Source of the DNA: Gammaproteobacteria bacterium
Lineage (GTDB): Bacteria > Pseudomonadota > Gammaproteobacteria > DSM-16500
Assembly (NCBI GenBank): GCA_013288395.1
Contig: JABDBV010000008.1
Span: forward strand, 1 to 36,766
Length of the DNA: 36,766 nt
Direction: 5' to 3'
Both the position numbers and the translations under genes were made by a program. The notes beneath the pieces were generated by a model. The model was given only the letters and a program-made list of their open reading frames with translations. It ran no database searches and had not been told where the DNA came from. Shown piece by piece: positions 7,466 to 32,310 of this stretch (within the stretch, counting starts at the first letter, position 1; each line of letters opens with the position of its first letter).

Positions 7466-7507
7466 AGGTATATTAAAAGCTAGCACGCAAAGAAAAGGAT
7501 GACTGCC

Positions 7508-9457
7508 ATGAGTCGACCGATGCTGACAATAATTGTTAGTATATTCCTAGGGATAGTGGTTGGCACGCTACTGATTATCGCTCCCTTGCAGCCACCAATG
7601 GCGTCTTATATTCTCCATGTTTCTCATACCGTAGCCCTTGCCGTTTTATTTGTAGCTATGGGGATACTGTGTTGGCTACTTTTTCATGAATGGCGTTTTA
7701 CACGGTTTGAGGCGACGCAGAAAAATTCAATGGGTACAGCATTTTTAGAATTAAAAAAAGGATTTGAAACGATATTCGACGATTCGACCAGTGGCATCGC
7801 ACAATTAAGTTTAGATGGTAGAGTGACGAAAGCGAACCATGCTTTTGCCGATTTACTAGGTTACAGTGAAAGTGACTTGCTCACGATGAATTTTTATCAA
7901 CTTATCCATCCCAATGATTTAAACAATCTGCAAACGAATGTTCCATTGCTCATCGATAAAAAATTAAAAACCTATCAAAGTGAACAATTGTGCTACCGAA
8001 AAAATAATGAAACGCTGTGGATCATGTCCACTTTATCGCTTATGTTTAACAGCAAAGACAAACCTGATCATTATATTTTACAAATTCAAAATATAACGCA
8101 GCAAAAAAAGGCAGAAGAGCGGCTGCATCACATGGCGTACCATGATGCGTTAACGGGTGTGGCCAACCGCAATAAATTAGACCAATTTGTGAGTCACATT
8201 TTGGCTTCGTCGCGTCGTCATCAACAAGAGTTTGCGTTGTTATTTCTTGATTTGGATCGGTTCAAAAACATTAACGACACCATCGGGCATGAAGCGGGCG
8301 ATATGTTATTGCAAATTATTGCAGAACGTCTTATGAGCACGGTGCGTAATACGGATTTGGTCGCGCGTTTGGGTGGTGATGAATTTATTTTGGTGATCAC
8401 GGATGTTAAAAAAACAGAGGCAGTCGCATTGATCGCACAAAAAATTCTAGAAACCGCGATGGAAGCTATCGTGGTCAAAGGACAAGAAATTTATATTACC
8501 ACGAGTATAGGCATTGGCATTTATCCACATGATGGGCAAAATATCCAATCTCTCATGAAAAACGCAGACTTAGCGCTCTATCGTGCTAAAGAACATGGAC
8601 GCAATAATTATCAATTTTACACATCAGAAATGACTAGCAAAACGCAAGAAAAAATGGCGCTACAAAATGCGCTAGGACACGCGCTGGCCAAAAATGAATT
8701 TTCTCTTAATTATCAGCCAAAAATGAATATTAAAACGCGGCGCATTACTGGCATAGAAGCATTTTTACGTTGGAAAAATAAAGAATATACCAGCATCACG
8801 CCTGATGAAATTATTAGCTTAGCCGAAGAAACGGGGTTGATTATTCCCGTTAGCGATTGGGTATTAAAAACTGCCTGTCAACAACTTAATGAATGGCACA
8901 CAATGGGTTTCACTTCGTTGACGATGGCCGTGAACTGCTCGCCTCGACAATTTAAACACGCTACTTTTGTGGATGATGTGTTACGTACCATGACACAATT
9001 TAATTTACCACCAAAGTCACTAGAGTTGGAAATTACTGAACAAATTATTATGGAAGACCCTGAAAATACCTTGCGGGTGTTATATGCATTAAAAGACATA
9101 GGTGTACTTATTGTGATTGATGACTTTGGAACAGGCTATTGGTCATTAAATAATTTGCGTCGTTTGTCCGTCGATAAAATTAAAATTGATAAGTCATTTA
9201 TCAAACAAGTCAGAGTAGATGAAACCTCGGCGATTATTACCTCGGCTATTATTGCGATGGCTAACACATTGGGTATCACAGTGATCGCGGAAGGTGTAGA
9301 AACACGTGAGCAATATGAGTTTCTTGCTGCTGAGGGCTGCCAAGAAATTCAAGGGTATTATTTGACACAGCCGCAAACAGAAGAATCGATAACAGCATTT
9401 TTGAAACATCCGATGCCGGAGGGGGAAATGGCTGCGGATGTGGAAGTGATTGTTTGA
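7508..9457 (+). CDS. membrane PAS-GGDEF-EAL cyclic-di-GMP protein
   Basis: A 649-residue inner-membrane signalling protein. Order: two N-terminal membrane helices (about 5-26 and 37-60), a PAS sensor domain (about 90-200), a GGDEF diguanylate cyclase domain (about 210-370) and an EAL phosphodiesterase domain (about 385-630). The cyclase motif GGDEF near residue 289 is intact, with the RNTD inhibitory I-site five residues before it. In the EAL domain the signature reads E417-A-F, followed by LRW. Other expected residues are present (NCSPRQF, ELEITE, DDFGTG, AEGVET, QGYYL), so phosphodiesterase activity is likely but uncertain. I chose ATG 7508 because AAGGA at 7495-7499 sits 8 bases before it and overlaps the ATG at 7499. 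It is the only c-di-GMP enzyme in the window; the MshE ATPase is a possible downstream target. Confidence 0.92.
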   Translation: MSRPMLTIIVSIFLGIVVGTLLIIAPLQPPMASYILHVSHTVALAVLFVAMGILCWLLFHEWRFTRFEATQKNSMGTAFLELKKGFETIFDDSTSGIAQLSLDGRVTKANHAFADLLGYSESDLLTMNFYQLIHPNDLNNLQTNVPLLIDKKLKTYQSEQLCYRKNNETLWIMSTLSLMFNSKDKPDHYILQIQNITQQKKAEERLHHMAYHDALTGVANRNKLDQFVSHILASSRRHQQEFALLFLDLDRFKNINDTIGHEAGDMLLQIIAERLMSTVRNTDLVARLGGDEFILVITDVKKTEAVALIAQKILETAMEAIVVKGQEIYITTSIGIGIYPHDGQNIQSLMKNADLALYRAKEHGRNNYQFYTSEMTSKTQEKMALQNALGHALAKNEFSLNYQPKMNIKTRRITGIEAFLRWKNKEYTSITPDEIISLAEETGLIIPVSDWVLKTACQQLNEWHTMGFTSLTMAVNCSPRQFKHATFVDDVLRTMTQFNLPPKSLELEITEQIIMEDPENTLRVLYALKDIGVLIVIDDFGTGYWSLNNLRRLSVDKIKIDKSFIKQVRVDETSAIITSAIIAMANTLGITVIAEGVETREQYEFLAAEGCQEIQGYYLTQPQTEESITAFLKHPMPEGEMAADVEVIV

Positions 9458-11992: not shown

Positions 11993-12017
11993 GCTTTTGC
12001 TTGTTCTCGGGCTGAGC

Positions 12018-12150
12018 GTTTTGATTTCCTGCTGCTGTGCTGTCCTATTGCCTCTTCGCTCCAAACGCGCCATCCATGGCGCTTCGCATTGCATCCTGCA
12101 ATCCAGTCGCTGCGATGCAATAGGACAGCACAGCAGCAGGAAATCAAAAC
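12018..12150. repeat. 34-bp perfect inverted repeat with two nested hairpins
   Basis: Arms 12018-12051 and 12117-12150 are perfect reverse complements over 34 bases (inner part GCTGCTGTGCTGTCC). The 65-base interior holds two more small hairpins: GCGCCAT/ATGGCGC (12067-12082) and ATTGCA/TGCAAT (12088-12102). The element lies downstream of queC and could stop or shield transcripts from both sides. It has no coding capacity and looks like a non-autonomous repeat. Confidence 0.85.
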
Positions 12151-12166
12151 ACTAACCTCTCCAACG

Positions 12167-18755: not shown

Positions 18756-19157
18756 TTATGTGATCCCCGTCGCGGTAAAGGTTGCGCTGGTAGAACTAGG
18801 CCCTGTCAATGTACAGGTAACAGTGGCACCGACGGCTACGGCTGCCGAGGTAATAGTATAGCCGGTAGGCAGCCCACCCTGTAGTGCAGAGGATACATCA
18901 GTACAATTGGCAACCGCTACACCTAAACTCGCGCTTAAACTTCTGGCTGCGTAATTACTGCCATTTGCAGAGGATAGAGCGCCCGCTACACCGTTGGTAG
19001 CAGCAGTTTGAGCATTAGAAGAAAGACTAATAAATTTTGGTATAGCAACGGCTGCCAAAATACCAATGATGGCGATCACAATGATTAATTCGATTAAGGT
19101 GAAACCAGCCATTTTTTGCTTTTTATTCAGCCTACTGTTTCTCATAAATGCCTTCAT
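18756..19157 (-). CDS. MSHA-like type IV major pilin, paralogue 1
   Basis: A 133-residue prepilin. After a 17-residue basic leader comes the prepilin peptidase site G/FTLIEL with Glu5, then the hydrophobic helix (IIVIAIIGILAAVAIPKF). The small globular head carries two cysteines (VANCTD and VTCTLTG) that likely form a disulfide. It is the last gene of the msh operon. The mature sequence is very similar to the next upstream pilin, above all in ALQGGLPTGYTIT and the C-terminal tail. The start at 19157 has AAGGA ten bases upstream; an internal ATG 12 bases later is also possible. A major subunit role is inferred from size and paralogy. Confidence 0.88.
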   Translation of the reverse strand: MKAFMRNSRLNKKQKMAGFTLIELIIVIAIIGILAAVAIPKFISLSSNAQTAATNGVAGALSSANGSNYAARSLSASLGVAVANCTDVSSALQGGLPTGYTITSAAVAVGATVTCTLTGPSSTSATFTATGIT

Positions 19158-19180
19158 TTTAAAAAATTCCTTGAATAAGA

Positions 19181-19555
19181 TTAGGAAATGCCCGTAGCTG
19201 TGAATGTCGCCGTCGTAGAACTAGGTCCCGTTAACGTGCAAGTGACAGAGATTCCTACTGCAACTGATGCAGCGGTGATCGTGTAGCCAGTCGGTAAGCC
19301 ACCTTGCAATGCACCTGATAGATCAGTGCAATTCGCTACTGGAACGCCAAAAGAAGCGTTGAGTGAGCGTGCGCCATAATTCGTAGTGTTTGCTGAAGCC
19401 AACGCGCCTGCAATAGCATCCGTTGCCGCTGATTGTGCATTAGCGGATAAATTAATAAACCGGGGAATAGCCACTGCAGCAAGAATGCCAATAATAGCAA
19501 TGACGATGACTAACTCGATGAGGGTGAAACCAAATTGCAAACGCTTCCTTTTCAC
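19181..19555 (-). CDS. MSHA-like type IV major pilin, paralogue 2
   Basis: A 124-residue prepilin with a short basic leader (MKRKRLQFG), cleavage site G/FTLIEL, Glu5, the helix VIVIAIIGILAAVAIPRF and a two-cysteine head domain. It is a tandem paralogue of the pilin at 18756-19157, separated by 23 bases. The heads share long identical stretches and differ mainly between residues about 45 and 75 of the preprotein. In Vibrio the mshB/mshA pair occupies a comparable place, so one of the two may be a minor subunit, but here the two are so alike that duplication within this lineage is more likely. Confidence 0.88.
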   Translation of the reverse strand: MKRKRLQFGFTLIELVIVIAIIGILAAVAIPRFINLSANAQSAATDAIAGALASANTTNYGARSLNASFGVPVANCTDLSGALQGGLPTGYTITAASVAVGISVTCTLTGPSSTTATFTATGIS

Positions 19556-19577: not shown

Positions 19578-20798
19578 CTAATGAGATAAATTTATCATAT
19601 TCCACACAGGTAAATAAACACCTAATGCAATGATTAGTATAAGTCCTGAAACGAGGGCAATGAGTACAGGGCCGATTGTCTCGCTTAAACGCCTTAAATC
19701 ATACTCAATTTCACGACCGTGAAAGTCGGCTATATACTCAAGTGCTGGACTTAGCTCACCACTTCTCTCTCCCACCGATAAAATTTGTGACTCTAATGGT
19801 GAAAACAGCTCAATTTTCGTAATAGCTTGGGTAAAAGGCATGCCGCGTTCGATGGATTCCTGCATATCTGCAATTTGTTTGACAATATAGGCGTTCGTTA
19901 ACGAATTTTTAACTAATTGTAGTCCTTGAGTGACGGAGATACTGGCTGATAAGGTAATAGAGAATAATTGACAAAATCGAATGAGAATTATTCTCTTTAA
20001 GAGTTTTCCTGACAGAGGTATTTTTAACATTATTTTGTCTTTACGGTATTTACCTTCGGGTGTTTTCAGGTAGCGGTACAAAAAGACACCGCCTATAAAA
20101 GATAAAACTAACAGATAAGGCCCAAAGTTTATGACAAAATCAGACATATCAATTAAAAATGTCGTCTGCCAAGGGAGAGAAACCGTTAAATTGGTGTAAA
20201 ACCGTGCGAAAGTGGGAATAACAAATATATTTAATATAATAATAGACGATACGATCGAGACCAAAACAAAAATGGGATAACGAAACGCTTGTTTGATTTG
20301 TTTGACACTGCTGATTTCAAACTCAAGATATTGATATAAGCGTCCAAAAGCGGCACTTAATTGCCCCGTGCTTTCACCAATTTGTACAAGGTTAATGATG
20401 AGTGGTGAAAAGGTTTCTGGAAAATGTTGCATGGAGACGGACAAGCTTTCGCCCTTTTCAAGATGTTCAACTAAGCCATCTAGCGCCGTTCCTAGTCGAA
20501 AACTACGTGTATATTCTCTTAATTGCTTTAAAGCCGTCACCATCGGGACATTCGCTTGGTGTAGTAACTGCATTTGACGGGTGAATACGGCTAACTCTTC
20601 TAAGTAGACGCGATCAGATTGCAGATGATCTTGTAACCTATCCCAAAGGGGGCGTTTTAATTGAACCACATCAATCTGGATGGGAGAAATACCCTCCTTA
20701 ATGAGTTCAGCATTGAGAATATCAATGGATAAGGCTGCACGTTTTCCAACTCGTAGGCGGCCTTCCCTGTCGCGGCCACGATAATCAAATTGAGGCAT
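19578..20798 (-). CDS. mshG: MSHA pilus inner-membrane platform protein MshG (GspF/PilC family)
   Basis: A 406-residue polytopic platform protein. It has the two duplicated GspF cytoplasmic domains (about 65-190 and 265-390, with ELAVFTRQMQLLHQANVPM and ILIRFCQLFSITLSASISV). These are followed by membrane helices near 165-195, 215-240 and 375-400. It couples the MshE motor to pilin extraction from the membrane. The N-terminus MPQFDYRGRDREGRLRVG is typical. It sits 15 bases downstream of mshE in the operon. Confidence 0.92.
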   Translation of the reverse strand: MPQFDYRGRDREGRLRVGKRAALSIDILNAELIKEGISPIQIDVVQLKRPLWDRLQDHLQSDRVYLEELAVFTRQMQLLHQANVPMVTALKQLREYTRSFRLGTALDGLVEHLEKGESLSVSMQHFPETFSPLIINLVQIGESTGQLSAAFGRLYQYLEFEISSVKQIKQAFRYPIFVLVSIVSSIIILNIFVIPTFARFYTNLTVSLPWQTTFLIDMSDFVINFGPYLLVLSFIGGVFLYRYLKTPEGKYRKDKIMLKIPLSGKLLKRIILIRFCQLFSITLSASISVTQGLQLVKNSLTNAYIVKQIADMQESIERGMPFTQAITKIELFSPLESQILSVGERSGELSPALEYIADFHGREIEYDLRRLSETIGPVLIALVSGLILIIALGVYLPVWNMINLSH

Positions 20799-20813: not shown

Positions 20814-22511
20814 TTATATTTCGCCGGACATGCGAATGATTTCTTGCACGGTCGTGATGCCGCGATCCGCTAACGCTAAACCGGATTGCAGCAGCGATCG
20901 ATACAAGGGTTGCTTCGGTGCCAGTTTATAAAACAGACTGGTGTCATTTTTACGTAATGCGTCTGCTAATTCAGCTGTAATAGGCAATAACTCAAATATG
21001 CCTATACGTCCTCTGTAGCCAGTGTGATGGCAATAGGAACAACCAGCGCCGTGCTTAAAGACGGTTTCAATGGTATTAACATGCTCAACGGATTTGAGCC
21101 ATGTTTTTTCAGAGACGGTCAGTGGATCAGTAGTAATGCATTCATGACAAATTCGACGCACCAAACGCTGTGACATGACGGCACGCAATACGCTGGCAAC
21201 GAGGTAACCTTCCGCACCCATATCAATCAAACGTGTCACACTGCTAAGGGTATCATTCGTATGCAACGTTGCTAGAACCAAATGACCCGTCATGGCGGCA
21301 CGTAGCGAAATTTCCATGGTTTCTTGGTCGCGCAATTCACCAATCATGATGATGTCAGGGTCTTGACGTAAAATGGCGCGTAGAATAGAAGCAAAAGTAA
21401 GATCAATTTTCGGATTGACTTGCACTTGATTGACGCGTGGTAATCGATATTCCACTGGATCTTCAACAGTAATAATTTTGTCTTCGGGTTTATTTAATGT
21501 ATTTAGTGATGCATATAACGTTGTGGTTTTACCGCTACCGGTAGGGCCGACAATGAGAATTAAGCCATAAGAAGCAGTAAGCACTTGGGAATAGTATTGA
21601 TAAATTTCATCAGGCATACCAATTTGGTCTAGTTGTAACAAAATGTCAGTTTGGTTTAAAAGACGCATCACTAATGACTCGCCAAATTGTACAGGGATGG
21701 TAGAGACACGAACATCAAAGTTTTTATTTTTGACAGCTATAGTGAATCGACCATCTTGAGGCAAACGTTTTTCAGCAATATTTAAACCTGACACAAGTTT
21801 AATGCGTTGCACTAAGGCTTGTGTAATCGCCTTTTCCGGTATAATTTGCTCTTGTAAAACGCCATCAACGCGTAAACGAATACGTAAAACATTTAGACCA
21901 GGTTCTATGTGTATATCAGAAGCATTAATTTGAACAGCGTCTTCAAAGATGGAGCGTAGCAAATTAACGACCGGCATATCTTCGGTGGAAAAATCTTGTG
22001 TATCGGAAAAAAGATTAAGGGTGTTTGGTTTTAATTCCGCAGATAATGTTTCAGCAAAGTGAGAAATTTCATCGGCGCGACGATAAATGCTATCGAGTAC
22101 ATACAGTAAATCGTCTTCGCGGATCAGCGCCAAATCAATTTTTCGTTTTAATATACGCTCAATTTCTTCTTGGCCGAGTAAATCATTGGGGTCAACCATG
22201 CCAACTAGAATACTGGTAGCGTTATCTTTCAAAACAATGGCGCGCAAATGCCTTGAATAAAATTCAGGAAGTAATTTGACAGTTTCTTCATTGATGGGAT
22301 AATTTCGGAGATCAATATATGGTATGTGTAATTGTTCGGCTAACAGATGTAATAATTTATCTTCCTCAATAAAACCTAAGTCCACTAAAATTTGGCCGAT
22401 GCGTTTATCCGTTTTGCGTTGCACTTCGAAAGCGGCATTTAATTGCTCCTGTGTTACTAAATGCTGAGCTAACAGCATTTCAGCAATTAAACTTTTTTTT
22501 GGTCTAAGCAT
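20814..22511 (-). CDS. mshE: MSHA pilus extension ATPase MshE (GspE/PilB family)
   Basis: A 565-residue hexameric motor ATPase that drives pilin polymerisation. An N-terminal MshEN domain holds a c-di-GMP-binding motif at residues 37-60: R37-I-G39, G46, L53 and Q60 fit RLGxxLxxxGxxxxxxLxxxLxxQ. The ATPase core has Walker A (GPTGSGKTTT, near 320), an Asp box with RQDPDIIMIGELRD, and a His box. The four-cysteine zinc site (CHEC...CSYC) is also present. The frame opens at 22532, but ATG 22511 has AAGG eight bases before it and overlaps the mshN stop by 8 bases, so it is the likelier start. Binding of c-di-GMP is inferred from the motif. Confidence 0.93.
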   Translation of the reverse strand: MLRPKKSLIAEMLLAQHLVTQEQLNAAFEVQRKTDKRIGQILVDLGFIEEDKLLHLLAEQLHIPYIDLRNYPINEETVKLLPEFYSRHLRAIVLKDNATSILVGMVDPNDLLGQEEIERILKRKIDLALIREDDLLYVLDSIYRRADEISHFAETLSAELKPNTLNLFSDTQDFSTEDMPVVNLLRSIFEDAVQINASDIHIEPGLNVLRIRLRVDGVLQEQIIPEKAITQALVQRIKLVSGLNIAEKRLPQDGRFTIAVKNKNFDVRVSTIPVQFGESLVMRLLNQTDILLQLDQIGMPDEIYQYYSQVLTASYGLILIVGPTGSGKTTTLYASLNTLNKPEDKIITVEDPVEYRLPRVNQVQVNPKIDLTFASILRAILRQDPDIIMIGELRDQETMEISLRAAMTGHLVLATLHTNDTLSSVTRLIDMGAEGYLVASVLRAVMSQRLVRRICHECITTDPLTVSEKTWLKSVEHVNTIETVFKHGAGCSYCHHTGYRGRIGIFELLPITAELADALRKNDTSLFYKLAPKQPLYRSLLQSGLALADRGITTVQEIIRMSGEI

Positions 22512-23760
22512 CCGTGTCACCTTGCAAGACATGCAAACGTTTTTGTAAGTAAGCTAGCGAATCAGCGTTTAAATGGCCTTCAGTAATTGCTTTATTAAAT
22601 GCCTCAACGGCGCCTTGGCGCTGATTTAATTTGTCGAGTGACACGCCTAACCCAAACCACCAATTTCCATTATGCGGATTTAAATCTAATAACTGCTGAT
22701 AGATTTTGATGGCTAACTGATCATGATTGCTGCGCGTGTATAATGCCGCTATAAAGGCGTGATAGTCAGGATTATCAGAAAGCTGGGGTGCCGTATTTTG
22801 TAATAGAGCAATCGCGGCTTTAACTCTTCCTTGAGTAGTGAGTATACGTGCTTTTAATTCGATAAAGGGTGTATAGGTAGGATTTGCAGTTAGACCTTCT
22901 TCAATAATTTTGTTGGCTCTAGTTGGTTGCCCCTGGTCTAGCAAAAGTGCAGTAAGCGAGACGCGCGCATCTTTATGATTAGGGTCTGTTTTGAGCAATT
23001 CCGCCAAGCTGTTTATTGCATAAGAATAGTTGCCACTTTCAGCAGCTTTTAAAGCGACCTGATATTGCTCAAGCAGCAAACTATTCATGGCTTGTGTTTT
23101 GATTGGTATGGAAACAAAGCCATTTTTTACGTGATTCGCCGATGTTTGATATTCAATGGCAACGACTAATTCAGGATTTTTTTCATCCGTATTGAGATTG
23201 ACATATTTGATGGCGGCGCCCGGGTAAAGAGTGATATCAAATTGCGTATCTCCTCTTACTTTTTTCGTAGTAAGCTGTTGAATGGCTGTATTTAAATAGG
23301 TGGTCAAGGGGAGGGTGGACTGTAATTCAGCATGTTCAAGCACAAGATTTAATTTATTATTCATATCATCTGTGTTTAAACGATAAAGAGCGGCATGGTT
23401 TAGAAGAAAAGTTAACTCTGTAATATTGTCTTTTACTTGCAAGGTGACGCCGGTAATTAAAACGGGACTCAATAAGCTAGTGTCAATGGTGGAAGATGGT
23501 TCGAGAGCCTTGGATTGCACAGCAGGTAGGTGCGTGGGAATGGAAAGTTTTTGCTTTGGCTGGTGCATGTATTTGACAGTTGCGGTTATTAAAATCGCTG
23601 CAGCAACGATACCAAATATAATGCCGCTCAGTTTGTAGATGTGTTTAAATAAAAAATAACCATAGGATGGTTTTTCATTGATCAATATGGTGAGAGGCAC
23701 CATATGATGGGGCGATTTACGCTTCTCTAAATCTTTAAGCATGTTATTAATTAAACTCAT
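22504..23760 (-). CDS. mshN: MSHA biogenesis protein MshN, TPR protein
   Basis: A 418-residue protein beginning MSLINNMLKDLEKRKSP, the N-terminus typical of MshN. A single membrane helix follows (about 45-65), then a periplasmic region ending in tetratricopeptide-like repeats (about 220-410: ALKAAESGNYSYAINSL, YQQLLDLNPHNGNWWFGLG and similar). In Vibrio, MshN is needed for MSHA assembly, probably as a scaffold. The frame extends to 23841 into mshM, but the methionine at 23760 matches the family and has AGGAA upstream. Its stop overlaps the mshE start. Confidence 0.87.
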   Translation of the reverse strand: MSLINNMLKDLEKRKSPHHMVPLTILINEKPSYGYFLFKHIYKLSGIIFGIVAAAILITATVKYMHQPKQKLSIPTHLPAVQSKALEPSSTIDTSLLSPVLITGVTLQVKDNITELTFLLNHAALYRLNTDDMNNKLNLVLEHAELQSTLPLTTYLNTAIQQLTTKKVRGDTQFDITLYPGAAIKYVNLNTDEKNPELVVAIEYQTSANHVKNGFVSIPIKTQAMNSLLLEQYQVALKAAESGNYSYAINSLAELLKTDPNHKDARVSLTALLLDQGQPTRANKIIEEGLTANPTYTPFIELKARILTTQGRVKAAIALLQNTAPQLSDNPDYHAFIAALYTRSNHDQLAIKIYQQLLDLNPHNGNWWFGLGVSLDKLNQRQGAVEAFNKAITEGHLNADSLAYLQKRLHVLQGDTDA

Positions 23761-23777
23761 TATACAATGTTTCCTGC

Positions 23778-24668
23778 TTAGTAAATGATATAAACAGCAA
23801 ATAAAACAACCGTGCAAACACTTAAGCCAATGATCGCCCACTTACGTTTTTTTGTGCTTTTTACAGAATCCGTATCTTTTACTGCAACGCGCATGGTTCG
23901 ATGGCAGACTTGATGACTGCCGCGCCCATAAGCAACCAGTAATGCTTTGTGTGAAAGTATGTTGACGATGCGTGGTATGCCGCCGCTTGCTTTAAATAGC
24001 AAATTACTCGCTTTCTTTGTGAATAAATTTCCATGGGTATAACCAGCAACCGCGAGACGGTGATGTATATAGATATCCAAGTCTAGTCGGTTCATTAACG
24101 GTAATGAATAGGTAAAGCTGATTCGTTGTTTTAACTGACGTAAATGTGCTTTATTCAACCGTTCATCCAATTCGGGTTGGCCAAATAAGATGACTTGCAA
24201 TAATTTAGATGATTCTGTTTCAAGATTGGTGAGTAAGCGGATGGTTTCCAAACTTTCATCGGTTAATGCTTGCGCTTCATCTACAATAAGAATAACTTTT
24301 TTTCCGTTAGCGTGTAGCGTAATAAGGTGTTGGTAGATAGCAGTGAGCAACTCGTGTTGATCTTGCCACGAGGTGGGATCTAAGCCTAATTCTCGGGCAA
24401 AGGCTTTACGTACTTCTACTGGCGTTAGATCGGGATTGGGTATATAGGCTGATACAAAGCTATTATCTAAGCTTTCTAATAATTTTCTGCATAATAATGT
24501 TTTACCAGAACCAACTTCCCCCACGATTTTAATAAAGCCTTCACCGCTATTTACACAAAATTGCAGGATATTAAATGCTTCTTGATGGCCCTTTAATTGG
24601 CAGTAAAAATTTGGGTTCGGTGTTAAGGTGAAGGGCAGTGCCTGTAATTGAAAAAATTCTTGGTACAT
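23778..24668 (-). CDS. mshM: MSHA biogenesis AAA ATPase MshM (ExeA-like)
   Basis: A 296-residue ATPase of the ExeA/GspA group. It has a Walker A motif (GEVGSGKTLL near residue 51), Walker B (VILIVDEAQAL near 125) and sensor-type segments (LFGQPELDERL, RLRQ-like LRQLKQRISF). A C-terminal membrane helix (about 275-295) anchors it to the inner membrane. ExeA relatives help the secretin assemble through the peptidoglycan; here mshL lies directly upstream, 15 bases away. Unlike ExeA, no periplasmic peptidoglycan-binding domain follows the helix, which agrees with MshM. Confidence 0.9.
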   Translation of the reverse strand: MYQEFFQLQALPFTLTPNPNFYCQLKGHQEAFNILQFCVNSGEGFIKIVGEVGSGKTLLCRKLLESLDNSFVSAYIPNPDLTPVEVRKAFARELGLDPTSWQDQHELLTAIYQHLITLHANGKKVILIVDEAQALTDESLETIRLLTNLETESSKLLQVILFGQPELDERLNKAHLRQLKQRISFTYSLPLMNRLDLDIYIHHRLAVAGYTHGNLFTKKASNLLFKASGGIPRIVNILSHKALLVAYGRGSHQVCHRTMRVAVKDTDSVKSTKKRKWAIIGLSVCTVVLFAVYIIY

Positions 24669-24683: not shown

Positions 24684-26477
24684 TTAAGAATCTGATCGTT
24701 CTGCCTCGTTACCAAATATTTTGGGCAAACTTCCCGTGTGGAAAGGACGTCTGAGCATTTGGAACGATTTTTTCTCTTCTTTCAATTCATTGGTAAAGCT
24801 ACGGTTATTGGCAATGATCGGTCGCAGCAAGATGAGTAATTCCGATTTAACAGATACCTGGTGTGTGCGTCTAAATATAGAGCCAAAGAAAGGAATATTA
24901 CTAAGCCAGGGAGTAGAGGCAATCGATTCAGTGGTGGCATTTTGCATTAAACCACCGATGACAACCACTTGGCCATTTTTGGCGCGTACGATGTTGTCAG
25001 ATTCACGAATCGTGCTGTTTGCAAGCGGCAGAGTCAGATTATTTGGCGATCCTACCGCGTTTGAACCTAAGCCTATCACTTTAATTTGTTCGGTGACTTT
25101 ACTGACACTGGGATGTATGTGTAAAACGACTGTGTCATTTTCACCGATTTCAGGCGTCACATCTAAAGTGACCCCTGAAAAGAATGGGGTTAATGAAACA
25201 TTTTGAGAGGGTAAGGTGCTGGTGCCGATAATGGAGTTGGTGGTCGATACACCCGTTACAAAAAACTCATCCTGACCAACTTTGATCACGGCTTTTTGGT
25301 TATTCACGGTTGAGATGTGTGGACTTGATAACACCTGCACATTGCCCTGCGTTTGCAATAAGCTGATCAGTACTTTGAAGTTACCATTGATACGGATGGC
25401 GAACACGCCGGTTGCTGTGATATCTTTTAAATCAGTGCCTAAAATTTCTTTTGTTGAAAATTGTCCCATACCAGCGGTGGTATCGACGATAGGGTTACCA
25501 TTAATATCGACTTGAGCAGGGTTACCTAGAATGCTCCAGTCTACACCTGCTTGGTATTCATCATTTAACTGAACTTCAAGGATTTTAGCTTCAAGAATGA
25601 CTTGCCGGTTCAGGCTGGTTTGTAAACTATTTAAGTACCGCGCAACATGATTGAGTTCAATGGGGAAAGAACGCACAGAAATTAAGCCTGATTGCGCATT
25701 CACGGTGACTCGACGGCCATCTTCTTTGCCTACCATGTCGGTAATGGTTTTTTCTATATCAGACCAAAAGCGCGTTTCCGATTTTGTTTCTAGGCTGCTG
25801 ATGGTGCCGATACCTTCTGGTGTGGAACCAGACTGCCCGCCGCCTGGCGTACTACCTGATTGATTACCGGTATAAATGGATGTGCCACCAACGGTGGTGG
25901 TACCCACAGAGTTACTGATTTGCCCCGTGGTGAGCTGGGTATAAGACCGACCTTTTCGTTGCACATCAAGGTAATTGACATGAAAAACGCGCGTTTCTAA
26001 TTTAGGCGGCGATACTTCATAGCCATAAGAGGTACGGTGGTATTCAAAACCGTATATGTCCCGCACTGCATCCATGGTTTGTCTGATGGTGACATTTTTC
26101 AAACTCAAAGAAATGGTGCCGTTGATATTAGGGCTGATGATCATATTATCATTGGTGCCAGCGACCAAACTCATGAAAAATTCTTTAGCAGGCACTTTGT
26201 TTGCGGCGACATCAAACCGTGGCGGCGTTTCTCGGCTGGGGTTTACATAATGTGACAAGGGCGGCAAAAGAGCAGAATCAATGTTTGAAGGAAGTCTTCT
26301 TGAAGAAGCGCCAGCAATTCTTTGATTGTCTTTGATACTATCTTCCAATGTTTTCTCAGTGGCTTGCACAGAAACAGGATGGGTAGGATGAATGGTATGG
26401 CAGCTTATCAATAAAAAAGACAAACAAATTAGAAATAGGTTTGCGAAACGCTTGAAGTTTTTAGTTTGCCAATCCAT
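24684..26477 (-). CDS. mshL: MSHA outer-membrane secretin MshL
   Basis: A 597-residue secretin, the outer-membrane pore through which the pilus leaves. It is a lipoprotein: the signal peptide ends in LISC with Cys26 as the lipidated residue. An STN-like N-domain (about 95-160, NINGTISLSLKNVTIRQTMDAVRDIYG) and further N-domains precede the secretin core (about 285-560). The core carries the signature PWLSNIPFFGSIFRR near residue 540. A Gly/Ser-rich low-complexity stretch lies near 195-225. It is the largest member of the operon and lies 11 bases after mshK. Confidence 0.93.
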   Translation of the reverse strand: MDWQTKNFKRFANLFLICLSFLLISCHTIHPTHPVSVQATEKTLEDSIKDNQRIAGASSRRLPSNIDSALLPPLSHYVNPSRETPPRFDVAANKVPAKEFFMSLVAGTNDNMIISPNINGTISLSLKNVTIRQTMDAVRDIYGFEYHRTSYGYEVSPPKLETRVFHVNYLDVQRKGRSYTQLTTGQISNSVGTTTVGGTSIYTGNQSGSTPGGGQSGSTPEGIGTISSLETKSETRFWSDIEKTITDMVGKEDGRRVTVNAQSGLISVRSFPIELNHVARYLNSLQTSLNRQVILEAKILEVQLNDEYQAGVDWSILGNPAQVDINGNPIVDTTAGMGQFSTKEILGTDLKDITATGVFAIRINGNFKVLISLLQTQGNVQVLSSPHISTVNNQKAVIKVGQDEFFVTGVSTTNSIIGTSTLPSQNVSLTPFFSGVTLDVTPEIGENDTVVLHIHPSVSKVTEQIKVIGLGSNAVGSPNNLTLPLANSTIRESDNIVRAKNGQVVVIGGLMQNATTESIASTPWLSNIPFFGSIFRRTHQVSVKSELLILLRPIIANNRSFTNELKEEKKSFQMLRRPFHTGSLPKIFGNEAERSDS

Positions 26478-26488
26478 GTGTCGTCCTT

Positions 26489-26797
26489 TTACCTTGCCTG
26501 TTTAACAGAAGTGGTAAGTTGTAGCACTTCCTTTGTATTTTGCGGCCCGGTTAATTCTACCGTATCTGGGTCAATGCGGGTAATAGTATATTCGCCTAAA
26601 TGACTTCCTAATGTGAGGGCTTGGTCATTAATAATGACTAAACTATGTTCGGGATAGACAAAAATGGCAGTTAAAGAAAGCGGGCCTTGGGAGGGGGTAC
26701 CTGGCTTTTCTTCATAATCCGGCGGCTCGGTTGGGTCATGCAATGTGGCAAAGCCAAGCAGAAGCGGCACGCATAGGGTTAATAAAATTTTATTCAT
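26489..26797 (-). CDS. mshK: MSHA biogenesis protein MshK
   Basis: A 102-residue exported protein with a signal peptide (MNKILLTLCVPLLLGFA) and the DPTEPP motif near the mature N-terminus that marks MshK and pilP/GspC-like proteins. The remainder resembles an HR domain (VIINDQALTLGSHLGEYTITRI), which in type II secretion and type IV pili contacts the secretin N-domains. The frame is open to 26851 within mshJ, but ATG 26797 gives the signal peptide and overlaps the mshJ stop by 8 bases. It lies between mshJ and mshL as in Vibrio. Confidence 0.8.
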   Translation of the reverse strand: MNKILLTLCVPLLLGFATLHDPTEPPDYEEKPGTPSQGPLSLTAIFVYPEHSLVIINDQALTLGSHLGEYTITRIDPDTVELTGPQNTKEVLQLTTSVKQAR

Positions 26798-27404
26798 AAA
26801 AAATTGAAAACTCCACTTCGACTTTTGCTTGGGGGTATTTAATGACTTCATAGTTCAAATGAATCCAATGAACATCGGGAAGTTGGTGCTCTAATTTTTC
26901 TAAATAATCGACAACATCAAAAAAACTACCGGCAAAAGATATTTGTAATTTTTGCTCAAAAATGCTGGTTTTTGGTTCGGTTGTATTAGCGGGTGTATAA
27001 ATGGAGGTAGAAGCACTTTTAATTTCCAAGATGATAATTTTTGCTTGGGTTTGTAAAACGGTTTGTATGGTTTCTTGCCATTTGTTTTGTGAAAAAGGTT
27101 GGATAAGCGTTTGATAACGCCCTTGCATGTTTTGAATTAATTGGTTTTGTGATAACCATTGTTTATAAAGGGGTGTGGTGGAAATTTTTGTTAACGCGTT
27201 TAACTGTTCATCCCATTTGTCTATTTGTTCATGGGCGGTCTTGATGTCAGCGCGAAGCGTGTCCGCTTTTTTTTGTAAAGGCCGAAAGAATATCAAGTGA
27301 AAAAAAGCGTAGATAATGGCCCATCCGAGTAGCAGCAGCAGGATCCGTTCCCGTGTGATGCGATAGGCATACCATTTTTTTAGTTGCTCGAGTTTTTTGT
27401 TCAT
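26790..27404 (-). CDS. mshJ: MSHA biogenesis protein MshJ (PilO-like)
   Basis: A 204-residue bitopic protein: a short cytoplasmic basic segment, one membrane helix (about 20-41), a coiled-coil stretch (about 42-70), and a ferredoxin-like periplasmic domain rich in beta strands. This is the PilO/GspM plan; the protein forms the inner-membrane alignment complex with MshI and MshI2. ATG 27404 overlaps the preceding stop (TGATG), which argues for translational coupling; a GTG one codon earlier is an alternative. Primary-sequence signals are weak, so the call leans on topology and gene order. Confidence 0.8.
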   Translation of the reverse strand: MNKKLEQLKKWYAYRITRERILLLLLGWAIIYAFFHLIFFRPLQKKADTLRADIKTAHEQIDKWDEQLNALTKISTTPLYKQWLSQNQLIQNMQGRYQTLIQPFSQNKWQETIQTVLQTQAKIIILEIKSASTSIYTPANTTEPKTSIFEQKLQISFAGSFFDVVDYLEKLEHQLPDVHWIHLNYEVIKYPQAKVEVEFSIFYE

Positions 27405-27997
27405 CACGATTTTTTCACCATTGTTATCTGGAAAGCTAATGATCCTTCTTTGTTATTCAAATTTTCAATATTATTTACATTAAAATTAAAGTCAGCAAAT
27501 AATTGTTCATGAGAAATATTTAATAATAAGGCTTGCAAGTTTTCGGATTTAAGCATATTGCCTTTGAGGATTAATTCTTGTTCGGCGTTTGACATAGAAA
27601 TACTGGTTAACCAAACATTCGACACGCTTATACGCGATAGCGCTAATAATTTTTGTGAAAAGGAGGTATGTGGCGATAATCCGTTTAAAAACTTTCTTTC
27701 ATCAGCAATGTTTTTTTGCATCAGTTCCAATGTTTGCGGAATATTTTGTGAGAAAAATATGGATGGATACTGGTTTTTAAGGGTGTTAAATGATTTTTCC
27801 AGCGCAATAGTCTGTAGCTGCAGCTGGTTTCTCTCCCTAGTGAGAAAAAACACTTTTACAGTTAAACTGAGATAAATCAACGTAAAAAAGGTAAGTACGA
27901 TGGCGTGACTGATCCAAAATTGTTTCCAGGTGAGCAGCGCTTTGTCGGGACGCGTTGTGGTGAATGGTTGGTAGAGGTTAATTTCCTGTTTTAGCAT
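27404..27997 (-). CDS. MSHA biogenesis protein MshI2 (PilN-like)
   Basis: A 197-residue bitopic protein. The cytoplasmic N-terminus MLKQEINLYQPF carries the INLY motif that PilN uses to bind PilM. A membrane helix (about 30-52) follows, then a coiled coil and a periplasmic PilN/GspL-like domain (about 110-195). It would dock the actin-like MshI to the pilus base. The frame opens at 28027, but ATG 27997 begins the conserved INLY segment and has GAGG upstream. It overlaps the mshI end by 20 bases. Confidence 0.83.
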   Translation of the reverse strand: MLKQEINLYQPFTTTRPDKALLTWKQFWISHAIVLTFFTLIYLSLTVKVFFLTRERNQLQLQTIALEKSFNTLKNQYPSIFFSQNIPQTLELMQKNIADERKFLNGLSPHTSFSQKLLALSRISVSNVWLTSISMSNAEQELILKGNMLKSENLQALLLNISHEQLFADFNFNVNNIENLNNKEGSLAFQITMVKKS

Positions 27998-28967
27998 AAA
28001 CCTCGTCCTTGCGTAATGCACAACCAAGCGCTAATAAAAAGTTTTTTTCCAGAGAGCGTGATTTTGCTGAATCTTCAACAAAGGATGCTAATGAAAAAGG
28101 CTCGACGGATAATAATAAATGTTTGGAAAAAGCCTCAGCAATCTCTGTGGCATTCATCTGCTGTGAAGAAACAAAGATGCGTGTCGGACTGGGAAGCCGC
28201 CATTGACTTTGAAAGTAATCAAAATAGCGTAATATATCCAGGCATAATTCTTCATGCGTTTTTAGTTTAGTCTCGTTCTCAAGGTACAAATTAATGTGAC
28301 GGGTAAAATAGAGTGTTTGTTTATGGGTAATATTCAAGATGGCTAACTTTTCATAAAAATAAATCATCGCTGTACTTCGTTCATCTTTTTCACCCATGTT
28401 GGCTAAATTACGCAAAGCAAGCTCAGGGATGTCGATGGCGGTCAAATTTAAATTTAAGCTGGCAAAAATATCGATAATACTTTTCAACTGAGATTGTTTG
28501 GCGGCGACTGCGGCAATCATTGGATTATTGGCCGTGGTTTTTCTAGGCGGGAGCATAAAATAATCGATAGTGGCTTCATCAGTGGGATAAGGGAGCACAC
28601 TGCGTAAGCGCCAGGTCAGCGCATCATGAAATTCATTGGATTCCACCGCCAGAGAATCGATTAAAAAGATTTGGTAGTCAGCGGGTGTCAATAGCCAATA
28701 GGTGGGGACATGCTCTATTTCATACCGTTCAATCATGCCAGTGAGCACCAATTTTAGACTTTCCATATCGTCGTATTTGAGCATTTCTGATAAAAGGACT
28801 TGAATGCTGTCTTCAACACCCGCAGGTGTTTTTTTAATGAGAATGATATTTATTTCGCGCGAGGATAATGAGATACAGCAGCGATTAGGCGATAGAGGGC
28901 GCTGCTTTTCCGCAAAGAAAGACATGATCCATTGGCGTAATTCATCAATATGTTTTTCAAGTTGCAC
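27978..28967 (-). CDS. mshI: MSHA biogenesis protein MshI (PilM-like, actin-fold)
   Basis: A 329-residue cytoplasmic protein of the MshI/PilM group. Recognisable are an early beta strand (CCISLSSREINIILIKK), a WRLRSVLPYP segment near 120 as in PilM, AIDIPELALRNLAN near 185 and a C-terminal LALGCALR. It would form a platform at the inner face of the membrane with MshI2. It starts at GTG 28967 with AAGGAA seven bases upstream. The 63-base gap before it is the largest in the operon, so an internal promoter is possible, though none is clear. Confidence 0.85.
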   Translation of the reverse strand: MQLEKHIDELRQWIMSFFAEKQRPLSPNRCCISLSSREINIILIKKTPAGVEDSIQVLLSEMLKYDDMESLKLVLTGMIERYEIEHVPTYWLLTPADYQIFLIDSLAVESNEFHDALTWRLRSVLPYPTDEATIDYFMLPPRKTTANNPMIAAVAAKQSQLKSIIDIFASLNLNLTAIDIPELALRNLANMGEKDERSTAMIYFYEKLAILNITHKQTLYFTRHINLYLENETKLKTHEELCLDILRYFDYFQSQWRLPSPTRIFVSSQQMNATEIAEAFSKHLLLSVEPFSLASFVEDSAKSRSLEKNFLLALGCALRKDEVYAKTGN

Positions 28968-29030: not shown

Positions 29031-30671
29031 TTAAGGATAAATTTCTTGCCAAGCAAAAGGATATTGCTGAGGTGCAATGGCGGAAATCGCATTTAACTGT
29101 TGACTGATACCAGATGAAAGCGTGACCCAGGCGGATCCATCCCAATGCACAGCGGCACCGGCAGCGCCGACTGCCCATGCATCGTTGCCGGTGCCAAATA
29201 GGGTCACACCAAATAAATTTTGACTGGTGCTCGTGTTTTGTGATGACCAGCTTGTTCCATTGTAGATGATAGCATTCCCACTATTTCCTACGGCCCATCC
29301 AGCGGTGGCATGAGAGCTGAGTGTTGCATCGACCATGGTGATGGCATTCATTTGGGTAGCAGTGGGAGAGGTGACGGGACTCCAGGTTGAACCATTCCAT
29401 TCGATAATGGTACCAGCAGCACCCACTGCCCAGGCTTCGCTGGCAGATACCACATAAACACCTAGTAAATTATTGCTGGTGGGGCTGGTGTCCACTGTCC
29501 AGTTGGTGCCGTTATATTTTAATATGGTGCCGGTATCACCCACTGCAAAGCCCAGTGTACCCGCGCCGCTTTGGGTCGTATCGATGACATGCACAGCATT
29601 TAAATTTGCATTTCCAATCGCGTTTGCAGGAATACTGGGCGAGGTGGCGGGTGTCAATTCGGTCCAATTGCTTCCATTCCATTTTAAAATGGTGAAGGTG
29701 TGTTTGCCTCCTGAGCCGGTGCAGGTTCCGGTGCTCTTATACGCAACGCCTACTGCCCACGCTTCATTGGAATAAACAGATGACACAGCGTTGAGATTTT
29801 GATTGGAGCAAGAAAATGCTAAGGTTGACAAGTTCCAACTGGAGCCTGTCCAGTGCAACAAGCTAAAGTTAGGGGCAACTGCATTGCCGACGGCCCAGCC
29901 GTTGGCATTAGATAGCATAGAAATACCATTCAGGGTGCCATTAGCAGCATTGGTAAGAGAACTATCGGTCCATGCTACCTCAGTAGGGCGGTTCCAGCGC
30001 GTGATGGTAAATTTGCCGCCGGCCGCAACCCCCACGGCCCAGGCTTCTTGTAGCTGCATCGCCTGCTGGATTTCCCGTTTATAAATGGGAGACGTAAGAT
30101 TCGGGATACCGCCTAAAACATCCACCATACATTGATATTGTGACACCGCGGCACCGCTTGCGTGTGGTGTATTGTAATTGGCATTGACACCACGCTGAAC
30201 ACCAATCAAATTGTTTCCAGAAATTGCACCATAATTAATAATTTCTGAATCAATCATGATGCGTCCTGCTGACGCAAACCCGGATGCACTGGTTAAAGGA
30301 ATGGTGGTGGTGCTGCTGTTAATGGAACTGCTTAGCGTTGTATTGACATAAACGGGATTGCCGGATACGGCAGTCGCGGTAAATGTGCCATTACTGAAAG
30401 TGGTGTTAGTGAGGCCTGCATTACCAGATAAAGAACCGCAGCCAATGCGTATATTGCCGCCGCTCAGTGAGGAAGTTAATAAAAACCGCGCTGCACTTTC
30501 AAAACCAGCTTCAGCAATATTGAGTGCTTTGTCCGCTTGCTGAAAATTCAATGTGGCGGTGGCGCTCCCTACATAAAGATAAGTAATCGCTAAGCCAATA
30601 AAGCCAATCACTAAGATTAGCAACACCGCTAAGACGGCCAGAAATCCGCGCTGCGTTGATAATGTTCTCAT
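29031..30671 (-). CDS. PilX/MshP-like minor pilin fused to a seven-repeat putative beta-propeller
   Basis: A 546-residue protein. Residues 1-60 are a GspK/PilX/MshP-type N-terminus (STQRGFLAVLAVLLILVIGF), with the conserved ALNIAEAGFESA helix and no Glu5. Residues about 60-205 form a pilin-like region including GRIMIDSEIINYG and GVQRG...ASGAAV, a pattern seen in other MshP-like proteins. Residues about 209-546 contain seven repeats with the pattern (A/G)WAVGxxG...WNGSxW; the AVG triplets are at 212, 260, 306, 376, 415, 460 and 500. This resembles Ycf48/BNR-like propeller blades. Seven copies suggest one closed seven-bladed propeller, probably exposed at the pilus tip. It overlaps mshO by 4 bases. 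No mshQ follows, and the propeller may serve as the adhesin in its place. Cys78, 181, 288 and 317 could form disulfides. Confidence 0.82.
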   Translation of the reverse strand: MRTLSTQRGFLAVLAVLLILVIGFIGLAITYLYVGSATATLNFQQADKALNIAEAGFESAARFLLTSSLSGGNIRIGCGSLSGNAGLTNTTFSNGTFTATAVSGNPVYVNTTLSSSINSSTTTIPLTSASGFASAGRIMIDSEIINYGAISGNNLIGVQRGVNANYNTPHASGAAVSQYQCMVDVLGGIPNLTSPIYKREIQQAMQLQEAWAVGVAAGGKFTITRWNRPTEVAWTDSSLTNAANGTLNGISMLSNANGWAVGNAVAPNFSLLHWTGSSWNLSTLAFSCSNQNLNAVSSVYSNEAWAVGVAYKSTGTCTGSGGKHTFTILKWNGSNWTELTPATSPSIPANAIGNANLNAVHVIDTTQSGAGTLGFAVGDTGTILKYNGTNWTVDTSPTSNNLLGVYVVSASEAWAVGAAGTIIEWNGSTWSPVTSPTATQMNAITMVDATLSSHATAGWAVGNSGNAIIYNGTSWSSQNTSTSQNLFGVTLFGTGNDAWAVGAAGAAVHWDGSAWVTLSSGISQQLNAISAIAPQQYPFAWQEIYP

Positions 30672-31144
30672 GAGGAGAGGTCTCGCAAATAGACACCCGA
30701 TTTGAGGGTATAGTTCACACTTTTTTGCGTCACATTTAGGGTGATTTTAATATAGGTGATATTGGCCGCCGCTCCCGTTACGCTACCGTTTTTATCATAA
30801 TAACTAAAAGAGAGAGTGGCAATGCCATCGGCAAGCACCACTGAATTGCGCGTGAGACTGCTGCCGCTTAATTTATAATCGATGCTATTACCATTCACAT
30901 CGGTAAAACTATATTCCCCGCTGGTGAAGGTGCTGATATCAGACGCTGAACGGGTAGCGCGTATTTCTTTGATCATGCGCTCCATGCCTATACGGCCCTG
31001 CCACAACGCGTCGGTGATATTTTGTTCTCGGACCATGCTAAGTAGTGTTTGTGTATAGATAGTAGCAGTGCCGGCAATAATAATTCCTATCAGTATGATC
31101 ACTGCTACTAATTCAATTAATGTAAACCCGCGTTGTTTTAGCAT
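30668..31144 (-). CDS. mshO: minor prepilin, MshO-like
   Basis: A 158-residue prepilin with a very short leader (MLKQRG), cleavage site G/FTLIEL with Glu5, a hydrophobic helix (VAVIILIGIIIAGTATIY), and a PilW/GspJ-like head (WQGRIGMERMIKEIRATRSA, then beta strands). In MSHA and type II systems this class belongs to the tip complex with the GspI-, GspH- and GspK-like subunits. Its stop overlaps the start of the propeller gene as ATGA. The name follows gene order and the ERMIKEIR block; exact orthology is not proven. Confidence 0.78.
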   Translation of the reverse strand: MLKQRGFTLIELVAVIILIGIIIAGTATIYTQTLLSMVREQNITDALWQGRIGMERMIKEIRATRSASDISTFTSGEYSFTDVNGNSIDYKLSGSSLTRNSVVLADGIATLSFSYYDKNGSVTGAAANITYIKITLNVTQKSVNYTLKSGVYLRDLSS

Positions 31145-31154
31145 CAGTCGCCCA

Positions 31155-31541
31155 TTAATAATTCGCTATCATTGTGGAATAAGAAGCATTGCCGTTACCA
31201 CTTACAGTGACTGCGATGGTTTTGTAATTCGCATCACCATTAATCGTCGTGCAGGTAATATTGACGGCCAATGAAAAACCAGATGGTTTGGTACAAAAAG
31301 CAGGGACGCTTGTGCTTGGGCACGTGATAGAGGTATAGCCATTCGCGTATTGTAAGCGCCGTTGTCCAATGAACCATTCAATGCAATTCCTTGCCGTTTG
31401 ACCAGCAATGGTGTTCTGTAAAAGCTGAGGTGTTTTTAGCTCGGCGGTACTGATAGCAAGAAAAAGCGTGCTAGCAAGAATCGCAGACACAATAATGACG
31501 AGCAGCACTTCAATTAAAGTAAAACCACGTTGTCTCATCAT
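31155..31541 (-). CDS. mshD: minor prepilin, MshD-like (PilV/GspI class)
   Basis: A 128-residue prepilin: leader MMRQRG, cleavage G/FTLIEV with Glu5, helix LLVIIVSAILASTLF, and a small head with four cysteines, two of them in SITCP and ITCT. The QRGFTLIEVLL start and the NTIAGQTARNCIEW segment are typical of PilV/GspI/MshD proteins. It starts within the mshC stop (ATGATG). It is short compared with Vibrio MshD, so the assignment rests on gene order. Confidence 0.75.
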   Translation of the reverse strand: MMRQRGFTLIEVLLVIIVSAILASTLFLAISTAELKTPQLLQNTIAGQTARNCIEWFIGQRRLQYANGYTSITCPSTSVPAFCTKPSGFSLAVNITCTTINGDANYKTIAVTVSGNGNASYSTMIANY

Positions 31542-32029
31542 GCGACTGTGACCCGTCCAGTGACTGCCAATATTGATACGGTGACAGTGGTTGATCCTGA
31601 TGTCAGTGGAATAGTCGCTGTCGAAGCAAGCGCAGTGCCTGGTGATGATGAAGTAGTGTAGGGCGCGCCTACTGCATCAAAAGCAATTAAATTGCTGGGT
31701 AAATTAGACAGCGTTCCAAATGAAATGCCGCTATTTAATGTGACGGTGGTATTACCAAAAGCCATAGTAACCGGATTGCCCGCGCTATCACGGATTTGAT
31801 AGGTATTTGACGATAATTTGATGAGATAGAAACGTTTTCCTCGCGTCATGGCGAGTGATTGCGTATAGCGGACATCATTAGCAACTTGATTCGCTTCTGC
31901 GCCTACATTTATGGCGCTGGCTGGCCATTGTATTATCACCATCAGGCTCAGGATGCCGATGATCACCAATACCACAATGAATTCAACTAATGTAAATCCA
32001 TTTGCATTTTTTATGTTTAATGCGTCCAT
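31538..32029 (-). CDS. mshC: minor prepilin, MshC-like (GspH/FimT class), first gene of the msh operon
   Basis: A 163-residue prepilin with a longer leader (MDALNIKNANG), cleavage G/FTLVEF with Glu5, helix IVVLVIIGILSLMVII and a GspH-like head (NQVANDVRYTQSLAMTRGKRFYLI, GNPVTMAFG, VTVSILAVTGRVTVA). The LAMTRGKRF block is characteristic of MshC/GspH proteins. It leads a 15-gene operon; an AT-rich -10-like stretch and a 21-bp palindrome lie within 75 bases upstream. The ribosome site is weak (GAAG). Confidence 0.8.
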   Translation of the reverse strand: MDALNIKNANGFTLVEFIVVLVIIGILSLMVIIQWPASAINVGAEANQVANDVRYTQSLAMTRGKRFYLIKLSSNTYQIRDSAGNPVTMAFGNTTVTLNSGISFGTLSNLPSNLIAFDAVGAPYTTSSSPGTALASTATIPLTSGSTTVTVSILAVTGRVTVA

Positions 32030-32102: not shown

Positions 32103-32202
32103 TCCTTCTGGTTACTTGGCCCTTGACGTAACTACAATTTATTACTTTGGGAGAATTACAGAATCGAGTGGTGTTGCATAAATCGTCCGTCTTTGCGAAG
32201 GG

Positions 32203-32289
32203 GTGTAGCCTGGACACGCTTTTTGTGTCCAGGATAGTGCATATAGCGAAGCCACTACCCTGGACACAAAAAGCGTGTCCAGGCTACAC
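32203..32289. repeat. 37-bp inverted repeat hairpin (one mismatch)
   Basis: Arms 32203-32239 and 32253-32289 pair over 37 bases with one mismatch, leaving a 13-base loop. Arms begin GTGTAGCCTGGACACGCTTT. A half-copy lies at 1342-1366, so this is a dispersed repeat family. Placed between two divergent promoters, it could insulate the msh operon from the serine hydrolase gene. Confidence 0.9.
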
Positions 32290-32310
32290 TCCCTTACTGT
32301 GTGGGAGGTT

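Follow-up and report, generated by a model that had tools for sequence, protein, structure and literature searches.

In the 36,766-nucleotide stretch of gammaproteobacterial DNA analysed here (the window), the product of one gene is probably a one-piece subunit for the tip of a type IV pilus of the MSHA type; in it a minor pilin, a head and a strand acting in cis are joined in a single chain. Comparison across several hundred genomes suggests that this one fusion protein does the work of the two tip proteins, a tip pilin and an adhesin, found in many relatives. The fusion is real and widespread and has apparently not been described before; a literature search, which covered few subscription papers and preprints, found no minor pilin joined to a propeller in an MSHA system.

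A minor pilin joined to a seven-bladed beta-propeller

The fusion gene (Table 1) is a single open reading frame of 546 aa on the minus strand, with its stop codon at 29031-29033, and the plus strand across the same interval contains many stops. The N-terminus carries a class III leader ending in Gly, MRTLSTQRG, which is followed by FLAVLAVLLIL, so that Leu occupies position 5 of the mature protein, in agreement with the lack of Glu5 that had been noticed; Glu5 is present in all the neighbouring pilins (those of mshC, mshD and mshO and the two MshA-like ones). Every aligned family member that has an N-terminus likewise shows the Gly-1 leader and no Glu5. This leader with the hydrophobic helix at residues 5-65, the lack of Glu5 and the place as fourth gene of a minor pilin set mark the protein as a minor pilin of the PilX/GspK class; PilX_N (PF14341) matches it weakly, with an E value of 2.5e-4 and 21.4 bits, under the curated cut-off of 25.5. 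The fusion protein gave no match to N_methyl (PF07963), which the neighbouring pilins do match, to DUF6701 (PF20419) or to PF05567, and the last of these results ruled out the propeller as a relative of PilY1. The pilin module is the counterpart of the entire short MshP of MshQ-bearing genomes, which ends at about the point where the propeller starts in the fusions (~residue 207). An extra beta-rich segment within the module, which reads TTIPLTSASGF..RIMIDSEIINY..RGV..HASGA, is missing from the fusions of several other families.

The seven AVG units reported in the original prediction are found exactly at residues 212, 260, 306, 376, 415, 460 and 500. The repeat is less uniform, however, than the form AWAVG...WNGSxW ascribed to it, as the fourth unit reads GFAVG, the strict W[ND]GSxW motif occurs in three repeats only (331, 425 and 510) and is degenerate in the others, and the spacing is uneven (48, 46, 70, 39, 45 and 40 residues). 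Seven [WF][AVT][VAG]G motifs are present in residues 205-546, where 100,000 permutations of the same residues averaged 0.28 and never exceeded 5; a chance origin of the repeats was ruled out by this shuffling together with the structure model.

An AlphaFold2 model built on an alignment of 20 homologues (mean pLDDT 87.5, pTM 0.85) runs from the helix at 5-65 through a beta-rich pilin module, up to ~207, into the propeller, whose strands form seven four-stranded blades, with strand 526-532 closing blade 1. The best Foldseek matches in the PDB were Ycf48 propellers (E 2.8e-11, ~18% identity), followed by designed seven-bladed proteins, and VIA-align superposed the model on 7bid, a designed seven-bladed protein, with a Z score of 30.8 over 278 residues at 2.4 A, all 286 target residues being covered; searching the PDB by sequence yielded nothing useful. 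A second member, from a genome of another family (L052 from G387) and 27% identical to the window protein (alignment A2), was modelled with a lower pLDDT (78.8) and a like architecture, its best match being again 7bid (Z 30.3). In it the propeller lies between the pilin sheet (86-96, 99-109 and 116-127) and a strand of nine residues (446-454). Closure of the seven repeats into one seven-bladed propeller, as originally proposed, is supported at the level of predicted structure in these two separately modelled members.

Table 1. Coordinates in the window of the fusion gene, its parts and the msh locus
Feature	Position	Strand	Basis
mshP-like gene: PilX/GspK-class minor pilin and seven-bladed beta-propeller, 546 aa	29031..30671	-	
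Prepilin leader, residues 1-9 (MRTLSTQRG), cleavage expected after G9	30645..30671	-	
Pilin module, ~residues 1-207 (helix 5-65, then beta strands)	30051..30671	-	model and short MshP comparison
Extra beta-rich segment in pilin module, ~residues 113-179	30135..30335	-	alignments
Seven-bladed beta-propeller, ~residues 208-534	29070..30050	-	model
C-terminal tail, residues 538-546, ends FAWQEIYP; proposed donor strand	29034..29060	-	
mshO-like (PilW/GspJ-class) minor pilin, Glu5	30668..31144	-	
mshD-like (PilV/GspI-class) minor pilin, Glu5	31155..31541	-	
mshC-like (GspH/FimU-class) minor pilin, Glu5	31538..32029	-	
mshI-like (PilM-like)	27978..28967	-	
PilN-like	27404..28027	-	
mshJ-like (T2SSM/PilO-like)	26790..27407	-	
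mshK-like	26489..26851	-	position alone
MshL secretin	24684..26477	-	TIGR02519, E 7e-73, 245.2 bits vs cut-off 250.2
mshM-like ATPase	23778..24668	-	
mshN-like TPR protein	22504..23841	-	
MshE assembly ATPase, N-terminal c-di-GMP-binding motif	20814..22532	-	NF053729, 54 bits, cut-off 38
mshG-like platform protein	19578..20798	-	
MshA-like major pilin, copy 1	19181..19555	-	
MshA-like major pilin, copy 2	18756..19157	-	

Exchangeable heads and a conserved C-terminal tail

In other genomes the same pilin module is found at the same locus position bearing different heads, which by eye were labelled solenoid-like (L020, L038-L040) or jelly-roll-like (L089/L117, L093/L115 and L116), with a mixed remainder; the group labelled jelly-roll-like in the tree (J) is itself mixed, and a Pfam search with the alternative heads gave no significant domain. 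Exchange can be followed between near relatives. Within one genus, the modules of a propeller-bearing protein (G343) and of one with another head (G115) are 44% identical over 110 residues and their last 13 residues align weakly, the heads being unrelated, and within one family a propeller-bearing protein (G238) and another (G342) show 40% identity over 127 residues with heads that differ likewise. A module-only tree of 85 columns, most forks of which are weakly supported, cannot be explained with fewer than six switches between the three head labels, and for the propeller label three or more switches are dictated by branches with good support; the propeller of G343 is nested in a clade of another head with an SH-aLRT support of 98%. 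In these sequence comparisons the head is exchangeable between the pilin module and the C-terminal tail. The chances seem about even that the head position was refilled several times in Gammaproteobacteria, by the propeller and by other folds of solenoid- or jelly-roll-like appearance, and that such proteins make up a class of single-chain MSHA tips, in which an MshP pilin is followed by an exchangeable head and then by a C-terminal strand of the PilY1/MshQ type that completes the pilin's own sheet, no separate tip protein being needed for assembly.

Propeller-family sequences are also found in other arrangements. One genome (G095; L147/L090) has a single frame of 1375 aa, of the MshQ type, that contains both a propeller-family match and DUF6701, and another (G172; L041/L055) encodes a secreted protein of ~970-1000 aa with more than 20 AVG-type units, too many for a single propeller.

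After the head, nearly all members end in a tail of the form W-x-E/Q/D, which reads FAWQEIYP in the window protein and QRWREIIP, VHWTEVIQ, IVAWQELMP or SIWKELF elsewhere. When counted as W.[EQD] with one to nine further residues up to the C-terminus, this tail is present in 25 of 27 fusions, in 8 of 10 pilin modules with other heads and in 9 of 10 PilY1 proteins (e.g. GRQSWRELR and GRLSWKEIRR), and it appears in none of six short MshP proteins from loci that bear MshQ or are related to these and in 14 of 543 background frames of at least 200 aa, some of these 14 being tip proteins. MshQ C-termini carry a looser version (DRILYWQEIFP, RQIYIREPW, STIYLRELY), and a matrix made from them gave the fusion tails, taken together, higher scores than the background (p about 1e-6), no single fusion tail being significant at 1% against a background that included some tip proteins. 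The tails had already been inspected when the pattern was drawn up, and the tail counts and p values are therefore descriptive. The predicted fusion of pilin and propeller holds, but not in the shape of a plain C-terminal graft, as the propeller sits before the conserved W-x-E strand; conservation of the tail whatever the head makes such a graft less likely.

A different arrangement was found in G116 (L118, 3039-5642), where a PilX-like pilin of 307 aa lacking the W-x-E tail is followed by a protein of 554 aa that has a signal-like N-terminus and ends in GPWREQYQ. Judging from these two sequences, the pair may represent the tip in split form.

A proposed one-piece tip

PilX has been modelled below PilY1 at the tip of type IVa pili, and strand complementation between the two proteins has been predicted by modelling for several T4aP tips (PMC13190605). 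MshQ is regarded as the putative adhesin of MSHA pili (PMC7096442). In the one-piece tip that we propose, the N-terminal third, of the MshP/PilX type, would join the MshC-, MshD- and MshO-like pilins in a priming tip complex, and the exposed, ligand-binding head would be the propeller, which would stand in for MshQ, elsewhere a tip protein of its own. The tail, modelled as a strand at 542-544, would exit the propeller as a short strand and would most likely add to the pilin's own beta-sheet, performing in cis the strand complementation that has been modelled in trans between PilX and PilY1.

It can also be the case, though we consider it unlikely, that the propeller does not act as an adhesin and is instead a cap with a structural or sensing role, which would prime assembly, gate or block the MshL pore, or sense a surface, with no specific ligand. 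The C-terminal propeller of PilY1 has been reported to control pilus formation and retraction via calcium (PMC13190605), and loss of MshQ in V. cholerae lowers the amount of MSHA at the surface (PMC7096442), from which it follows that tip proteins act in assembly too. Against this, the swapping of sequence-unrelated heads behind the same pilin module is more in keeping with a binding head that varies than with a gating role that is conserved; such swapping would still be compatible with a role of the tail in assembly that all these proteins share.

Gene order and distribution

The fusion is the fourth gene of a GspH/PilV/PilW/PilX-like minor pilin set (32029 to 29031), downstream of which, on the same strand, lie mshI-, pilN-, mshJ-, mshK-, mshL-, mshM-, mshN-, mshE- and mshG-like genes and two mshA-like genes. 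The presence in one locus of an MshL secretin and of an MshE with the c-di-GMP motif bears out the assignment to an MSHA-type operon, and the TIGR02519 cut-off for MshL is surpassed in close relatives. In most relatives the four-gene cassette adjoins the msh genes in divergent orientation, and in distant families the fusion follows mshC, D and O, in the place of mshP. Legionella adelaidensis NCTC12735 (NZ_LR134433.1) encodes a protein, WP_058462971.1, that is 27.6% identical over 95%, with a gene order as in the window, and this match suggests a kinship of the window's host to Legionellales. NZ_LR134433.1 is labelled as a plasmid of L. adelaidensis and has, next to its msh locus, genes for cytochrome oxidase as well as uvrB, tatC and ubiB, on account of which it may be a piece of chromosome.

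Several other elements were observed in the window. The two MshA-like genes are in tandem (18756-19555), and several relatives likewise have two. Upstream of the cassette, at 32200-32292, there is a 40-nt inverted repeat, 95% complementary and with a 13-nt loop, whose ~90-base unit is found at some 40-45 places in the genome in a REP- or MITE-like manner. A TwoAYGGAY RNA (RF01731) was detected at 12013-12155 on the minus strand with 43.5 bits, barely over the gathering score, and a PAS-GGDEF-EAL protein is encoded at 7499-9457, ~10 kb from the msh locus with its c-di-GMP-motif MshE.

The window's own genome is a MAG, 57% complete, and its family was sampled with 35 genomes. The fusion was found in 17 of the 19 genomes with a strong MshL match (MshL-positive) and in 1 of the 16 without MshL (Fisher p 6e-7); among those with MshL, only G014 and G025 lacked it, and G025 has the pilin module with another head. 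Neither MshQ (PF20419) nor PilY1 (PF05567) was detected in any of the 35 genomes. A class-wide sample of 369 Gammaproteobacteria genomes, many of them incomplete, rendered 170 with MshL, 79 with MshQ and 15 with the fusion (one cut by a contig end). Among MshL-positive genomes, MshQ was present in 0 of 13 with the fusion and in 75 of 157 without it (p 6e-4, a value that ignores shared ancestry among genomes), 82 having neither protein, and none of the 369 genomes had both. MshQ, noted earlier as missing at the locus, was undetected throughout the family sample, and in the class-wide sample it and the fusion excluded each other. PilY1 is present away from the fusion locus in 7 of the 14 fusion genomes tested, as would be expected if it served a separate type IVa pilus. 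A scan of a wider contig collection gave propeller-type matches only, in Bacteroidetes and Chloroflexi.

The 13 MshL-positive fusion genomes span ten family-level groups. A search for the same domain pair in other msh loci found it across families of Gammaproteobacteria, and the architecture of the fusion recurs where mshP would stand in no fewer than ten family-level groups and in L. adelaidensis; uniqueness to this locus is ruled out by these relatives. As a whole, the original prediction was partly supported: the propeller, the MSHA-type locus and the lack of MshQ held, with the corrections that the fusion is not unique to this locus and is not a plain graft.

The same data bear on whether the cassette might work for a different type IV pilus or for the pseudopilus of a secretion system (T4aP or T2SS), its adjacency to msh genes being incidental. 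PilQ- and GspD-like secretins are present in relatives, the cassette lies on a contig other than that of mshL in two genomes (G022 and G028), and a PilT-like gene neighbours it in two more (G017 and G018). We consider this reading improbable, however, in view of the way in which the cassette follows MshL in the window's family, adjoins msh genes in most relatives and in L. adelaidensis, and takes the mshP place in distant families. It is most improbable that the propeller half is secreted or periplasmic, either cleaved off or never in a pilus, with the fusion as a membrane-anchored periplasmic scaffold: members of the same propeller family are indeed found on proteins that are not pilins and bear ordinary signal sequences (G172, G322 and G162), but the class III Gly-1 leader and the fourth place in the GspH-I-J-K-type set are conserved, and cleavage would strip the conserved tail from the pilin because the tail comes after the propeller.

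Implications

A one-piece tip offers an explanation of why some msh loci are without the tip adhesin MshQ, and it names a single candidate attachment factor of the MSHA type for environmental Gammaproteobacteria, Legionellales among them. Should the pilin sheet indeed be completed in cis by the tail, the fusions would be natural single-chain versions of strand-complemented tip complexes, and the idea that strand complementation licenses filament assembly, which has been proposed, would become testable in one polypeptide. Moreover, the swaps of heads behind one pilin module would provide a natural series on what decides the choice of surface.

Comparison with known systems

A close parallel is the pair MshP and MshQ of Vibrio, Shewanella and Aeromonas, with which the fusion has in common the msh gene set, the gene place and a Glu5-less MshP-like module, and a related strand motif, I-Y-x-R-E or in some W-Q-E-I, is found at MshQ C-termini. 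The fusion differs in being one polypeptide instead of two, with a propeller head and no DUF6701 (PF20419), and in having a C-terminal tail, which the canonical short MshP is without. PilX with PilY1/PilC of type IVa pili likewise combines a PilX-class pilin, a seven-bladed propeller, an S-W-R-E/Q-L-like tail and an H-I-J-K set; in the fusion, however, the chain is continuous, the propeller is not that of PF05567 and there is no large N-terminal domain, PilY1 being undetected in the window's family.

The modular pilins PilB and PilC of Streptococcus sanguinis, seen as tip-exposed adhesins, have a functional module grafted on a pilin module, and the fusion, as modelled, fits the modular-pilin idea of an extra module not specific to type IV pili placed on a pilin module. 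PilB has the IPR012902 motif with Glu5, whereas the fusion has neither Glu5 nor N_methyl and bears a tail after the head; a survey of modular pilins that counted 264 architectures required the IPR012902 N-methylation motif and would not count the fusion, as this motif is missing (PMC8179133). GspK of type II secretion and ComZ of Thermus are bulky minor pilins with a large domain added to the pilin module (PMC8179133). Their extra domain is an alpha domain or a beta-solenoid, in place of which the fusion has a propeller, and the heads of the sister loci L020 and L038-L040, which by eye seem solenoid-like, may be compared with them. The head of the fusion is most alike in fold to Ycf48 and other BNR/Asp-box seven-bladed propellers, its best Foldseek matches; Ycf48 is a photosystem II assembly factor, and the likeness implies no common function. 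The fusion would work like MshP with MshQ or PilX with PilY1, and yet it is a member of neither the MshQ nor the PilY1 family, the domain that defines each being absent from it.
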